The notes beneath the pieces were generated by a model. That model had not been told where the DNA came from, made no database searches, and saw nothing but the letters and a program-made list of their open reading frames with translations. This document shows, one piece after another, positions 1,038 through 32,478 of a stretch of 34,321 bases of DNA. Source of the DNA: Methanooceanicella nereidis (GTDB lineage Archaea > Halobacteriota > Methanocellia > Methanocellales > Methanocellaceae); assembly GCF_021023085.1 (NCBI RefSeq), contig NZ_PGCK01000018.1, forward strand, positions 1 through 34,321. The letters run 5' to 3'. The position numbers and the translations under genes are program-made. The stretch's first letter is position 1, and each line of letters opens with the position of its first letter.

Positions 1038-1544
1038 ATGCAGGCCTTCAATATGAAGCCCGATAACAGTAAAAACAGGGATAAAATGGAAAAAGAAGAA
1101 ACTCAATCACTTGTTCTCGACGCTTCGAGCGTAGTCTTAGGTGCCGGTCTGTTCCTCCTGTGGAAGACCATTATTAACAGCCTGGTATACTCCGTAATGA
1201 AAATGGGCTACGGAGCGAGCCTCACCGAATTCATATATTCGGGACAGGTCATGCAGTGGCTTACTGACGGCCCCCTGTTATTGTTCATTGTCGGGACACA
1301 TCTTTTCATTAATAATATCCGGGGACAGGACTCTAAAAAGCAGTTCGACATCGACATGATAAAAGGCATCCTTGCCGGCTTCATAATATGGCTTGAGGTA
1401 TGCACTGTAATATCTATCGCACAGTACAGGCTGGACTATATGTTGAGCATTACAGCCGGGTATGCTTTGATGGTCATTATCGTGCTCGCTTTACTGGTCA
1501 AGATATTCAAGCTTGATAGGGATAAAGCCAAGTTGCATCTATGA
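1038..1544 (+). CDS. Four-helix integral membrane protein of unknown function
   Basis: This 168-residue frame has a charged N-terminus followed by four hydrophobic segments (about 28-50, 72-92, 107-128 and 134-156) and a basic tail, so it should be a small polytopic membrane protein with a cytoplasmic C-terminus. I do not recognise a family and see no catalytic motif. The start is uncertain. The first ATG has no ribosome binding site, an in-frame ATG follows at 1053, and a third at 1086 has AGGGAT three bases upstream, similar in spacing to the tetR start further on. The gene stands alone, and 1545-1610 downstream contains nothing recognisable. Confidence 0.65.
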   Translation: MQAFNMKPDNSKNRDKMEKEETQSLVLDASSVVLGAGLFLLWKTIINSLVYSVMKMGYGASLTEFIYSGQVMQWLTDGPLLLFIVGTHLFINNIRGQDSKKQFDIDMIKGILAGFIIWLEVCTVISIAQYRLDYMLSITAGYALMVIIVLALLVKIFKLDRDKAKLHL

Positions 1545-1610: not shown

Positions 1611-1630
1611 GAGAGAAATGATTTATAATA
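1611..1630 (+). promoter_or_regulatory. Strong BRE/TATA promoter with no ORF downstream
   Basis: GAGAGAAATG followed by ATTTATAAT matches the promoters at 5782 and 9801 almost base for base. Expected initiation is near 1648-1652. The only annotated gene downstream lies on the opposite strand, so the promoter should drive the structured RNA described next. Confidence 0.6.
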
Positions 1631-1647
1631 CTTTTAAAGAGTAATAT

Positions 1648-1791
1648 ATGGCGAGCGCAGAGCAAGCCCCCTGATCCCGGGATAGTGGCCCCGGGGTCCT
1701 TAATTTTTAAAAACCATGATCCAAAAGGACAGAATTTATGGACGCTCCGGGAAAATACCGGGGCGTAAACAGATAATAATTGCATTTTTTT
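1648..1791 (+). ncRNA. Candidate small structured RNA with its own terminator
   Basis: Downstream of a good promoter the sequence can form a 9-bp GC-rich hairpin (1673-1681 with 1690-1698, loop 8 nt) and a second 9-bp hairpin (1742-1750 with 1758-1766, loop GAAAATA, one G-U pair), followed by a T7 run at 1785-1791. Apart from an 8-codon frame (MASAEQAP, 1648-1674) there is no open frame on this strand. The combination suggests a stand-alone transcript of about 140 nt. It would end just short of the convergent gene at 1806-2882 and could influence it if read-through occurs. The family is unknown and the call rests on structure and context only. Confidence 0.45.
1742..1791 (+). terminator. Hairpin plus T-run terminator
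   Basis: A 9-bp stem (1742-1750/1758-1766) is followed 18 nt later by TTTTTTT. Archaeal termination mainly needs the T-tract; the hairpin is an added feature. Confidence 0.5.
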
Positions 1792-3713: not shown

Positions 3714-4478
3714 TTATTCCTTCATCATACCAGGACACTGGTAATTCAGCGGTATGAACTTTCTTAGCACTTCTTTCGAGCCCGTATTAATAAAGTATTT
3801 TTTGAACTTCCCGTCCTGCTCCGCCTCTACAATGTTATCGGCGATGAACTTTTGTATATACCAGTGGACAGTGCTCTTGTCCAGCCCGAACTTTTCCGAA
3901 AGCTTCTGGTTCGTGATGCCCGGCTCGTCCAGAATGGCCTGCAGCATGGACCGGCTGGTATCGTTCCTGAGATGTGACGTTATCACTTTTTCGCTTTCGT
4001 CCATGCCCATGGAGTTCCGGTAGATGCGGGTGAACTTGCCCATTTTTTGAAGGATGATCTTGCCTTCCTGCTCGAGCATCTGGATATGATATTTTACTGT
4101 GCCGTTCTTCATGTTCCGGGACGATGTGATCTCCGAAGGAGTGCATCCCGGGTTACTCACCACATAATTAAAGATGATCTGCCTGTTCCTGTTGGCCAGG
4201 ACGTTCTGCATCCTGTTTATAATGACAGGGGCCAGGCCTATGGCGCCGAGCACTATGAGCAGGCCGTCCGCTATCGCGGCGATCTTTATCCACAGCGGAA
4301 GGTCAAGGTAGGATACGGAAGCGGCGTCCGTCATTTCTGGAGAGATACCGATATCTCCGGCCGGCTTGACCACGTAATCGCCGGGGCCTTTTGAGAGAGG
4401 TAATAAAAACACTGAAGCAATGATTATCGCGCTAAGCACCAGTATTGACACTGCCACAAGCTTCAGATCGATCTTCAT
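3714..4478 (-). CDS. Membrane-anchored transcription regulator with two winged-helix domains
   Basis: The 254-residue product starts with a signal-anchor helix (about 8-28), an outer loop of about 33 residues and a second helix (about 62-86). Two winged helix-turn-helix units follow, at about 96-155 and 166-232. Each shows the ArsR/MarR-like pattern: CTPSEITSS then GTVKYHIQMLEQEGKI, and GITNQKLSEKFGLDKSTVHWYIQKF. Archaeal proteins of this form are thought to sense at the membrane and bind DNA inside. I chose the ATG at 4478 because GGAGAACG precedes it by 8 nt; a longer frame from 4508 would overlap the upstream gene. The gene is 20 bp downstream of the secreted protein gene (4499-5389), so they probably form an operon. 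It is the natural candidate to bind the 15-bp motif found at both nearby promoters; that link is inference. Confidence 0.85.
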   Translation of the reverse strand: MKIDLKLVAVSILVLSAIIIASVFLLPLSKGPGDYVVKPAGDIGISPEMTDAASVSYLDLPLWIKIAAIADGLLIVLGAIGLAPVIINRMQNVLANRNRQIIFNYVVSNPGCTPSEITSSRNMKNGTVKYHIQMLEQEGKIILQKMGKFTRIYRNSMGMDESEKVITSHLRNDTSRSMLQAILDEPGITNQKLSEKFGLDKSTVHWYIQKFIADNIVEAEQDGKFKKYFINTGSKEVLRKFIPLNYQCPGMMKE

Positions 4479-4498
4479 GGTACGTTCTCCGTTTTTGA

Positions 4499-5389
4499 CT
4501 ATTCGCATCCTGTGCGGATATAATATTCTTCTTTGCCCGCGATATCAATGCCATTAACCTTAAGGTTCCATTGCCCCGTCGCGAGCCCGTCCTCATTCGA
4601 GACCTCCAGGTTGATACGTCCGTCCATCTCGCCGTCTGAATCATCATAATACGGCCCGAGGATATGGCCGTCAGGCGTGTATATCAGAAGCCTGAGATCG
4701 TTCTTCGGCTCCTTCCATTTCATGTCGACTACCAGGGATGTGCTGGCTTCGCTGACTTCGCACTGGTGCCAGTTTGTCTGGCCCTGTAAAATATCGTTGT
4801 TAAGCTCTACCTCCGGGAAGTCATTTAAGACCGGCATCCCCTGTCGCTTAAACATGATGCCGCCATAGAACACACAGTCGAAAGTCCCGTCTTCGACCGG
4901 GACGGACTCAGGAGGGGGCACACGGAAGTACCTCGAAGGGGGGCCATCTTCGCTGAAATTCATCATGAAGCCGGCCATATATTTCAAGTCGAAATTTTCC
5001 GGGGTCACTCCGTCCGGATGCATTTTCATCCACATCAGCGGAATGGATTCCTGCCTGTGATCATTGGGCCTCAGCACGAGCATCTTTCCTGCCATAAAGC
5101 TATCCTTTGAGACAGGGAAAGGCTTCTCATGCATCGATCCTTCATGGAAAATAAAATCACAGGATAAGTTGGGATCTCTAAGATCGAGCACCATTGTCGT
5201 GTAGTTCACGTCGGAAAATTTTGAGACCATGCCGATGTCAATGTCTTTCACCGGAATGGCATTCATCGCTATATCCGCACTGGCTTCTTCGGCCATTCTT
5301 GCCGTGCCCGTCACCTGGCCAAAGGAGCTATAAGACAGCGATATCATCAAAAGCCCGAGCAGTAAGATAATCCCACTCTTTTTAAGCAT
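4499..5389 (-). CDS. Secreted protein with PPC-like C-terminal beta domain
   Basis: The 296-residue product begins with a clear signal peptide (KK, then a hydrophobic core to about residue 24). The mature part is soluble. The last ~85 residues contain DLRLLIYTPDGHILGPYYDD and, further on, GQWNLKVNG, the pattern of bacterial pre-peptidase C-terminal (PPC) beta-sandwich domains, often seen in secreted archaeal proteins. No catalytic residues are evident, so it may be a sensor or binding protein. It is the first gene of a unit with the membrane-anchored regulator. Its promoter (cttaaata on the minus strand, near 5421-5429) is directly preceded by the shared 15-bp motif at 5436-5450. The function is not known. 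Confidence 0.75.
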   Translation of the reverse strand: MLKKSGIILLLGLLMISLSYSSFGQVTGTARMAEEASADIAMNAIPVKDIDIGMVSKFSDVNYTTMVLDLRDPNLSCDFIFHEGSMHEKPFPVSKDSFMAGKMLVLRPNDHRQESIPLMWMKMHPDGVTPENFDLKYMAGFMMNFSEDGPPSRYFRVPPPESVPVEDGTFDCVFYGGIMFKRQGMPVLNDFPEVELNNDILQGQTNWHQCEVSEASTSLVVDMKWKEPKNDLRLLIYTPDGHILGPYYDDSDGEMDGRINLEVSNEDGLATGQWNLKVNGIDIAGKEEYYIRTGCE

Positions 5390-5435
5390 TAATACCGATA
5401 GGATATGTTATTTCATGGCTATTTAAGCATTTTGA

Positions 5436-5450
5436 CCATATTGTCCAACT
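5436..5450 (-). promoter_or_regulatory. Operator-like motif AGTTGGACAATATGG at the secreted-protein promoter
   Basis: On the minus strand AGTTGGACAATATGG lies 8 nt before the TATA-like CTTAAATA of the 4499-5389 gene. The same motif with one change occurs upstream of the divergent ABC exporter at the same place relative to its TATA box. The match with 5741-5755 extends beyond the motif: a 30-nt stretch (5424-5453 against 5727-5756) agrees at about 26 positions. Confidence 0.6.
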
Positions 5451-5542
5451 GAAAGATAAAAATAGCTGTACTGTAGCTTGATACACAAGCATTTACAGAG
5501 CGTATGATTAGCATATATCAGGATTTTTCGAAAGCCCGAAGG

Positions 5543-5605
5543 CCCCGGGATATTACGATATCCCCGGGTCTTTGAGCCTCCGGGTGAAACAGGCTTGTGT
5601 TTTTT
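5543..5605 (+). other. GC-rich double hairpin with T-run (possible small RNA or terminator)
   Basis: A strong stem (CCCGGG-ATAT, 5544-5553, pairing with 5558-5561 and 5563-5568 with one bulged C) is followed by a shorter stem (5574-5579 with 5591-5596) and then T6 at 5600-5605. The layout resembles the candidate RNA at 1648-1791. The promoter evidence is weaker here (only agcatatatc near 5512). The rest of the 5390-5847 gap holds just the operators and promoters listed. Confidence 0.35.
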
Positions 5606-5740
5606 ATATTTGGGTAAGATTTCGCAGAGGATTAACTGGCTTATCCGGTTTTAATAGGGTGGTTAATTCCCGGGTGATGTTTTATTTCCCGTGCCACATC
5701 CAATAAAAATGTTAATTAGCATACCTTTTAAGCTTTTTGA

Positions 5741-5780
5741 CCAAATCGTCCAACTGTGGCAGGATAGTTGGACGATATGG
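5741..5780 (+). promoter_or_regulatory. Inverted-repeat operator upstream of the ABC exporter
   Basis: CCAAATCGTCCAACT (5741-5755) is followed after 10 nt by its near reverse complement AGTTGGACGATATGG (5766-5780). The right half lies 9 nt before the TATA box ATTTATAA (5790-5797). Together with 5436-5450 there are three copies of the motif between the divergent units and, by eye, no other clear copy in the window. A dimeric regulator is expected; the neighbouring wHTH protein is the best candidate. Confidence 0.65.
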
Positions 5781-5781
5781 C

Positions 5782-5797
5782 GAGAAATCATTTATAA
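5782..5797 (+). promoter_or_regulatory. BRE/TATA promoter of the ABC exporter operon
   Basis: GAGAAATC plus ATTTATAA, nearly identical to the promoters at 1611 and 9801. Initiation is expected around 5817-5823, which rules out the longer upstream reading frame starting at 5737 and supports a start at 5848. Confidence 0.6.
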
Positions 5798-5847
5798 TCA
5801 CTTCTCTAATGCCTCGTGTGGAAGCACTCGAAAAGGAGATGGCTTTA

Positions 5848-9767: not shown

Positions 9768-9800
9768 TATAGATCATATATGTTTGTTCACTTTTACTGA

Positions 9801-9817
9801 GAGAGATTATTTATAAT
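9801..9817 (+). promoter_or_regulatory. BRE/TATA promoter of the 9883 gene
   Basis: GAGAGATT followed by ATTTATAATT, the third member of the promoter set with 1611 and 5782. Initiation is expected near 9838. Confidence 0.55.
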
Positions 9818-9882
9818 TCCATTTTTAAATTATGTGATAGTAGACGACCGTACTGGAAAATTGATCCGGTCAAGGTGCTGAC

Positions 9883-10446
9883 ATGGACGGGAACATGATA
9901 ATGGGCATGCGTCATTCGGGCTGGATAAGATTAGCCCTTGAGACAGTATCAGTATTTGCGATATTTTTTATCGGGATATTTTTCTATAACGGAGATCCCG
10001 ATATGGCGATAATAGTATCCTTGTCTGTAGCCCTGTTCTACCTGCTGGTCTATGTGCTGACAGGAAAAAGCATGTTGAGGCGTTACGTTCCGGAAGAGGA
10101 GATCGAATTAAAAAATAGAGGCTCGCTAGGGGTGCTGGCATCGCTGGCATTCTTCGCGGTAGGGCTTGTGACCGTGACCGAAAACACCATCGTTTTTTCG
10201 TCAACTATATTTACCGGGCTTTTTATCTTTTTCTCTTCGCTGGGAATGCTGACGGAAAGGAACAGGAGGATGCTCAATATGGTGGCTGCGATATCGCTTC
10301 TGCCGATACCTTTTATCATTTCCGTGGACATCGAGGACGTATATGTTAAAGCGCTATTATACTTGATCGGTGCAGCGTGGCTTTTCTTTATCCTGTCAGG
10401 AGCATACGGGATGATCATAAAAAAGAAAACGAAGCAATATGGCTGA
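9883..10446 (+). CDS. Six-helix membrane protein, unknown
   Basis: The 187-residue protein has six hydrophobic segments (about 15-34, 42-60, 83-101, 104-123, 131-149 and 153-178) with charged turns (RRYVPEEEIELKNR, TERNRR) and a lysine-rich C-terminus. The start is supported by AAGGTG 5 nt upstream. There is no recognised family or active-site motif. It is convergent with trpA, whose stop lies 38 bp away, so the two transcripts probably terminate against one another. Confidence 0.7.
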   Translation: MDGNMIMGMRHSGWIRLALETVSVFAIFFIGIFFYNGDPDMAIIVSLSVALFYLLVYVLTGKSMLRRYVPEEEIELKNRGSLGVLASLAFFAVGLVTVTENTIVFSSTIFTGLFIFFSSLGMLTERNRRMLNMVAAISLLPIPFIISVDIEDVYVKALLYLIGAAWLFFILSGAYGMIIKKKTKQYG

Positions 10447-31338: not shown

Positions 31339-32478
31339 TCAGAAGATCGAGAGGAATATTCCCAATCTCCATATCAGGAAAACTATGGCTGGTAAGGAAA
31401 AGCTTTTTGCAGCATCTTTTATGGCTTCGACCTCATTATTGAACGCGTCGAATATGTCTTTCCAGTTAAGCACCTGTTGCTGTTCGGCCGGAGTAAGGCT
31501 ATCCCAGTCGGACGAGTTATTTCCGGACAGGAAACTATCAGCCTGGACAATAGCGGCCTGCACAGTCGCATTGGGTGTAAAGCCGTTTATGATGTTGAAC
31601 TTGGTCCCGAGCAACTGGGCATAAAGCTTATCGATGCCGTTGTTCGCATCCGGGATATTCAATATATCCACAGCCTGCTGTGTCGTTGTGACAGCTACCG
31701 TCTTTTCCCCTCCGGGATTGCCCAGGTACACTGTCGTATTGTTCAATATATTGGAAATATCTTCAGGATGGTTCTTCCAGAAACCAATCGTTCCGCCTGG
31801 CCCGGGTGTTGGAGTCGGGGTAGGTGTAGGTGTAGGGGTTGGAGTCGGGGTAGGTGTAGGTGTAGGGGTTGGAGTCGGGGTAGGGGTTGGAGTTGGAGTT
31901 GGAGTAGGTGTAGGCGTCGGGGTAGGGGTAGGTGTAGGTGTAGGGGTTGGAGTCGGGGTAGGGGTTGGAGTTGGAGTTGGAGTTGGTGTAGGTGTAGGCG
32001 TCGGAGTAGGTGTAGGTGTAGGCGTCGGAGTAGGTGTAGGTGTAGGCGTCGGAGTTGGTGTAGGTGTAGGCGTCGGAGTAGGTGTAGGGGTTGGAGTCGG
32101 AGTTGGAGTGGGCGTCGGGGTTGGAGTCGGAGTCGGGGTAGGTGTGGGCGTGGGCGTGGGCGTCGGAGTACAAGTCGGCGTGCACGTCGGCTTTGGAGTG
32201 CAGGTAGGTTTTGGAGTGCATGTCGGTACCGGGGTGCAGGTGCATGTCGGCGTAGGCTCTACTAAAGGTTCAGATGCAGGGATAGGATTCTCATCAGGTA
32301 ACGGCGGGCACGGAGGCAGATATCCATTATTATCGGAACAATTCGCGATAAGGTCGGAATACTCCTCGTTATCGTTTTGATCATAGACGTTATTATCGCA
32401 TGCGTATACTATCTGTGTCAAATAAAATAGTATGACAAGGATCACTATTAATGGGGTTATTTTTTTACGGAATCTCAT
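31339..32478 (-). CDS. Surface protein with Cys-rich head, 60-fold Thr-Pro linker and GFWKNH domain
   Basis: The 379-residue protein has a signal peptide or N-anchor (about 8-26), a short acidic part, a Cys/Pro/Thr-rich stretch (about 55-105, with repeated CTPKPT-type units), then 60 consecutive Thr-Pro pairs (106-225), and a globular C-terminal domain of about 150 residues starting GPGGTIGFWKNHP. The GFWKNH motif is known from secreted proteins of bacteria and archaea, where its role is unclear. A final hydrophobic segment (about 362-379) could be a C-terminal anchor. The Thr-Pro run would form a stiff, probably glycosylated stalk. No partner genes are adjacent. Repeat length probably varies between strains. 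Confidence 0.8.
   Translation of the reverse strand: MRFRKKITPLIVILVILFYLTQIVYACDNNVYDQNDNEEYSDLIANCSDNNGYLPPCPPLPDENPIPASEPLVEPTPTCTCTPVPTCTPKPTCTPKPTCTPTCTPTPTPTPTPTPTPTPTPTPTPTPTPTPTPTPTPTPTPTPTPTPTPTPTPTPTPTPTPTPTPTPTPTPTPTPTPTPTPTPTPTPTPTPTPTPTPTPTPTPTPTPTPTPTPTPTPTPTPTPTPGPGGTIGFWKNHPEDISNILNNTTVYLGNPGGEKTVAVTTTQQAVDILNIPDANNGIDKLYAQLLGTKFNIINGFTPNATVQAAIVQADSFLSGNNSSDWDSLTPAEQQQVLNWKDIFDAFNNEVEAIKDAAKSFSLPAIVFLIWRLGIFLSIF
31804..32163 (-). repeat. Hexanucleotide minisatellite encoding (Thr-Pro)60
   Basis: Sixty 6-bp units, all ACN-CCN in the reading frame, with varied third positions arranged in longer period patterns. Such arrays change length by slippage or recombination. The two other frames and the opposite strand stay open through it, which explains long antisense frames here. 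Confidence 0.9.

Follow-up and report, generated by a model that had tools for sequence, protein, structure and literature searches.

A gap of 261 bp between two convergent genes (positions 1545-1805), at the start of a contig of Methanooceanicella nereidis with its 3.19-Mb genome, carries a unit whose best-supported reading is a lineage-specific archaeal intergenic small RNA; we give this reading a probability of about 0.5. Transcription of the unit as a discrete RNA is, judging from its sequence, marginally more probable than that. A unit of this kind is an ordinary object, and this one was the most extreme in a 434-kb background sample, which consisted of the window (the whole 34,321-nt stretch of DNA analyzed) and 20 stretches, each of 20 kb, and in which genes were called by a simple long-ORF rule. 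The small-RNA reading had been proposed earlier from the sequence alone and is retained in part: a consensus promoter, the absence of a gene, a strand-biased fold, and a T tract speak for it, whereas no homologue was found, and the hairpins may instead be 3′-end structures. The coordinates of all features are collected in Table 1.

Table 1. Features of the candidate unit, its flanks, and the related sites in the window
Feature	Positions	Strand	Remarks
Upstream ORF	1038-1544	+	168 aa; T5 at 1551-1555, 7-11 nt past the stop
Facing (convergent) ORF	1806-2882	−	358 aa
BRE/TATA promoter of the candidate RNA	1613-1632	+	GAGAAATGATTTATAATACT; TATA box TTTATAAT at 1622-1629
Predicted small RNA, full length	1650-1791	+	about 142 nt; start presumed from TATA spacing
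Hairpin 1	1673-1698	+	9 bp, 7 G-C pairs, one U-G pair, loop of 8
T5 tract	1704-1708	+	just 3′ of hairpin 1
Weak middle hairpin	1714-1741	+	−5.0 kcal/mol, z −1.0; alone not significant
Hairpin 3	1742-1766	+	9 bp, 7 G-C pairs, one U-G pair, loop of 7
T7 tract	1785-1791	+	presumed archaeal terminator
8-codon frame MASAEQAP	1648-1674	+	named in the sequence-only reading
27-codon GTG frame	1685-1768	+	inside the unit
12-codon ATG frame	1738-1776	+	inside hairpin 3, with AGGA 8 nt before it; not taken for a gene
61-aa frame across the unit	1600-1785	−	judged non-coding
Hairpin resembling hairpin 1	5544-5568	+	CCCGGGATA..CCCCGGG; regulator/ABC gap
Sister promoter, ABC-transporter operon	5782-5798	+	GAGAAATCATTTATAAT
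Third promoter of the group	9801-9817	+	precedes the ORF at 9883

The convergent gap and its promoter

The gap lies between a plus-strand ORF of 168 residues and a minus-strand ORF of 358 residues. Neither gave a match in Pfam, and neither has a homologue in three relatives from the family (G001, G002, and G003). The product of the facing gene is probably a membrane protein, to judge from its hydrophobic stretches; of the 391 other phylum genomes, 8 gave weak matches to it, and the viral and genome collections contained no relative. The T7 tract that would end the unit is 14 nt from the stop codon of this convergent gene, whose 3′ end the transcript would face. On the minus strand, only U4 tracts follow that stop codon before a U5 is reached at 1713-1709; the gene is transcribed toward the unit, and its 3′ UTR thus probably extends over the small RNA's 3′ half.

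The promoter core GAGAAATGATTTATAAT at 1613-1629 matches a purine-rich BRE followed by a TATA box. The candidate RNA therefore has, by sequence match, a basal BRE/TATA promoter of its own, as is expected of an archaeal intergenic small RNA. This promoter had been described as almost identical to two mRNA promoters, which is true of the core but not of the whole 30 nt: positions 1611-1640 agree with the site at 5780 in 20 of 30 nt and with that at 9799 in 21 of 30. A 9-nt segment, ATTTATAAT, is identical in the promoters at 1613, 5780, and 9799. Local alignment of the gap scored 48 against 9768-9882 (reached by 0 of 200 shuffles) and 45 against 5390-5830 (reached by 3 of 200).

We searched four genomes of the family for GAGAARTSATTTATAAT with up to two mismatches. 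The organism's own genome contained 10 sites, five on each strand (control, 4), three of which lie within 8.2 kb of one another. Sites without a mismatch occur in the 3.19-Mb genome only at 1613 and 5782, the latter belonging to the ABC operon at a distance of 4.2 kb; because the pattern had been designed around these two sites, their number measures rarity and is no independent test. The core precedes the orthologous ABC operon in G002 as the exact match GAGAAATSATTTATA and that in G001 as CAGAAATGATTTAT, a 13-nt match; it is absent at the ABC operon of G003, where the region has diverged. At the ABC promoters and at several further genes of G002, a TTGGAC operator stands upstream of the core. 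It is absent ahead of the candidate promoter, which thus shares its basal type with the ABC operon but not the visible operator.

Two further elements were seen near these promoters. An inverted repeat, GGCGTATATCGCC, noticed by eye at 1581-1593, some 20 nt ahead of the candidate promoter, is a possible regulator site. Ahead of the ABC operon (window 5390-5830), an operator-like palindrome, CGTCCAACTGTGGC..GATAGTTGGACGAT, directly precedes GGCGAGAAATSATTTATA, and related forms occur in the family relatives and ahead of several other G002 genes (loci L103, L106, L109, L100, and L092 together). The palindrome perhaps marks a candidate regulon of the winged-helix regulator encoded at 3714-4508.

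The strict pattern GAAA.{1,4}TTTATA occurred at 12 sites in the 434-kb sample, seven of them intergenic. For four of these seven, an ORF starts on the same strand no more than 250 nt away, and one more is 92 nt ahead of a tRNA-like call, which indicates that strict sites are mostly real promoters. Orphan sites, defined as having no same-strand ORF within 350 nt, were the candidate and L042:18570, or three if the tRNA-like call is discounted, and the candidate alone among these three has a tract of T6 or longer in range. Under two looser promoter definitions, such a tract followed 5 of 34 and 8 of 36 orphan sites; the candidate had the best length-normalized fold under both, among the 5 and 7 units listed, and the unit ranked second in the first of these lists (L045:7280) extends into a copy of a repeat element of about 700 bp. 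Sense/antisense tests of the fixed patterns were weak (17 versus 8 and 6 versus 1). These patterns replaced a trained promoter matrix, which was discarded because it had learned AT-richness only and scored 26 of 53 convergent gaps at least as high as the candidate.

Fold, ends, and reading frames of the unit

The two 9-bp GC hairpins named in the sequence-only reading are both present, with a weak hairpin between them. Positions 1641-1791 fold with −51.7 kcal/mol (z −3.35), which none of 200 shuffles equaled; the fold of the exact unit is milder (−48.8 kcal/mol, z −2.78; 2 of 200 shuffles as good). Across computations, z ranged from −2.8 to −3.6 on the plus strand and was −0.70 on the minus strand, no better than shuffles. 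The U-G pair of each strong stem becomes a mismatch on the opposite strand, and the stems are complete in the plus-strand RNA only: hairpin 1 has −17.7 kcal/mol on the plus strand versus −14.4 on the minus strand, and hairpin 3 has −17.7 versus −11.7. A z value of −3.35 or below was found in 16 of 420 other intergenic windows, at least two of which fall inside repeat copies (L047:9806 and L045:7206). The 88 kb of intergenic sequence in the sample contain 13 such GC hairpins, and the candidate gap is the only one in the 434 kb that holds two. Six of the 13 lie in convergent gaps, the candidate's own two included; the other four are 0-23 nt past a stop codon, and T-rich tails follow some of them.

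Transcription presumably starts at about 1650, as we assume from the usual TATA spacing. With this start, the length to the T7 tract is 142 nt, in accord with the unit of about 140 nt and the T7 run claimed before, and with the 50-500 nt and U-tract end of a small RNA; both ends are predicted. The U5 and the U7 may each be an RNA end, and termination at the U5 would yield a possible short form of about 59 nt. A T7 alone is unremarkable: intergenic DNA holds 0.72 per kb per strand, and roughly 0.2 would be expected in the gap. Of 190 stop codons, 54 had a tract of six or more T residues within the next 60 nt in the sense direction, compared with 22 of 190 in the antisense direction, and this sense excess indicates that they probably are terminators in this genome. 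Archaeal termination at U tracts does not need a hairpin, according to PMC8716108. Hairpin 3 is 18 nt away from the T7, and this spacing shows that the two do not form a bacterial-type terminator; a GC stem with a T run directly after it, the bacterial intrinsic type, is found at hairpin 1 only.

No credible protein gene was recognized in the unit, its plus-strand frames of 8, 12, and 27 codons being too short for a judgment. It was said to hold only an 8-codon frame, which proved incorrect insofar as frames of 12 and 27 codons also lie inside it, none with real support, and a 37-codon plus-strand frame extends beyond the T7. The codon scores of the 8- and 12-codon frames (0.05 and 0.11) come from frames too short to be reliable, and that of the 61-residue minus-strand frame was −0.322, compared with −0.035 at the 5th percentile of real-gene segments.

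Search for relatives and the second hairpin site

The unit is single copy in its own genome. No relative was found in 40 related genomes, which gave short chance-like matches only, and no homologue in 391 other genomes of the phylum, where the best pieces measured 19-38 nt (E 1e-3 to 1e-2; 13 genomes, none in the family). Plasmids and phages held no relative either. Exact patterns, which miss diverged copies, found hairpin 1 in none of the viral contigs and hairpin 3 in none of the genome contigs. Rfam 15 had no match in the window at the gathering cut-off; the best match below it in 1545-1810 was an FMN riboswitch (10.7 bits versus 66.2, E 5). Conservation in relatives, which would support a small RNA but is not required for one, was thus not seen. 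Such lineage restriction is not unusual, because 21% of intergenic sRNAs were conserved among three Methanosarcina species in PMC5867862, and PMC6560208 calls sRNA132 a newly evolved RNA of Haloferax.

Several candidate relatives were rejected. A locus in Methanocella (G001, L010; E 0.002) offered an AT-rich match of 35 nt beside a transposase-like gene and, by eye, no comparable hairpin pair. At L092 in G002, the same promoter and operator have no clear gene behind them, and no similar RNA was seen. A locus in the organism's own genome with one promoter mismatch, L102, shares only the promoter with the candidate. In its own right, L102 (1385-1520, minus strand) is a second gene-less unit with an orphan promoter, GAGAAATGATTTATGAT, and it faces the 3′ end of a gene, which we take to be ArgF-like.

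The pattern CCCGGGATA, 2-20 nt, CCCCGGG, written from both own-genome sites, has two occurrences in the genome, one within hairpin 1 and the other at 5544-5568, and one in G003. The GC hairpin at 5544-5568 has a T6 tract further on, to about 5606, and a fold z of −2.04. This common hairpin prompted a search for pairing between the candidate RNA and the leader of the regulator operon (3714-5389), which was rejected. When accessibility was ignored, the first 59 nt ranked this leader 1st of 360, and the full RNA ranked it 52nd; with folding costs included (cofold), the gain was −1.4 or −3.8 kcal/mol, against median gains of −2.9 and −6.2 for the 1432 leader windows. The candidate could serve a local regulon as its RNA arm, in which case it would be produced along with the transporter and feed back on the facing gene or the regulator operon. 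This idea, which we consider improbable, stems from the ABC promoter being the closest match in the genome, the third promoter at 9801, and the hairpin echo, found in this genome only in the two gaps.

The window also holds, at 148-854, a copy of a repeat of about 700 bp with internal inverted repeats (312-436/532-656 and 217-282/692-757) and no ORF of at least 80 residues among the ORFs listed. The genome carries it at no fewer than 40 places, as counted from the 40 that were scored among 166 candidates, most near-full copies having 82-94% identity, and 30 other genomes gave a single weak match of 116 nt. The repeat apparently represents a giant-hairpin family specific to the lineage. Elsewhere, the minus-strand ORF at 31339-32478 encodes a very long Pro-Thr repeat.

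Alternative readings, possible action, and known counterparts

Several observations tell against a small RNA: the lack of a homologue in the 40 relatives and the 391 other genomes; the 16 of 420 background windows that fold equally well, with a z of only −2.78 for the exact 142-nt unit; the preference of GC hairpins for convergent gaps (6 of 13), as terminators would show; and the missing TTGGAC operator of the ABC promoter. The convergent setting, with its share of GC hairpins, equally fits the chief rival, in which hairpins and T tracts are terminators or 3′-UTR stabilizers of the convergent genes and the TATA-like site is fortuitous, and CTTAATTTTT directly behind hairpin 1 has been called terminator-like. 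We regard this as unlikely, though a serious contender. The hairpins begin as far as 129 and 198 nt past the stop codon of the plus-strand gene, which has its own T5 close behind that codon; on the minus strand, a mismatch breaks both stems, and the fold does not exceed that of shuffles; and a chance match so similar to the core of the ABC promoter is improbable.

The intact promoter core and both intact stems, together with the strand bias of the fold, also weigh against a promoter and leader left over from a lost or rearranged gene, transcribed or not and without function, since an unused relic should decay. The locus may indeed have been rearranged, as the flanking ORFs have no homologues in the family; moreover, only a single genome yielded the unit, and a copy of the repeat present in at least 40 places lies about 760 bp upstream. 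Such a relic seems distinctly unlikely to us. A tiny protein gene, of 8, 12, or 27 codons on the plus strand or 61 on the minus strand, is highly improbable: the 12-codon frame does have its AGGA, and translated small ORFs are reported in Methanosarcina mazei (PMC11456600), but the minus-strand frame scores as non-coding, the 12- and 27-codon frames would lie in stable stems, and no relative of the unit's DNA turned up.

As a small RNA, the candidate resembles sRNA154 and sRNA162 of M. mazei, which are likewise intergenic and within 50-500 nt, and sRNA154 has a stable structure with two stem-loops, as predicted for the candidate (PMC5867862). The likeness is by description only: sRNA154 has known targets, responds to nitrogen starvation with expression, and shows conservation within Methanosarcina, whereas the candidate is a sequence without a relative. 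According to PMC6560208, sRNA132 of Haloferax volcanii is monocistronic, has a BRE/TATA promoter, is confined to a single genus, and is associated with an operon for an ABC transporter, its putative site of interaction being in the 3′ UTR; the candidate resembles it in such features at the level of description only. Unlike the candidate, sRNA132 is backed by deletion and expression data and has homologues in its genus. Archaeal 3′-UTR antisense RNAs, a class named in PMC5867862, share with the candidate the convergent arrangement and the probable overlap with the facing 3′ UTR; in the candidate this overlap is deduced, and 14 nt separate the end of the unit from the facing stop codon.

In the mechanism that we propose for the small RNA, TBP and TFB would bind the BRE/TATA element at 1613-1632, and RNA polymerase would start near 1650. 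The RNA would fold into two strong GC hairpins flanking a weak one and would end at the U7 after about 142 nt and partly at the U5 after about 59 nt. Its 3′ half would probably overlap with the 3′ UTR of the convergent gene, and the likeliest action would be cis-antisense pairing or transcription interference at the 3′ end of that gene. The level of the facing mRNA would thereby be coupled to the conditions that activate the promoter type common to the unit and the neighboring ABC operon. Action at the facing 3′ UTR, suggested by the anatomy of the locus, is put forward tentatively, with the odds against it.

In the literature searched, the titles and abstract openings on this methanogen family mention no such RNA. 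If transcribed, the unit would be a small-RNA candidate with a defined promoter, structure, and end in the family, and it would provide an easy test of 3′-end antisense control in archaea. If it is not transcribed, a promoter, hairpins, and a T run can coincide between convergent genes.
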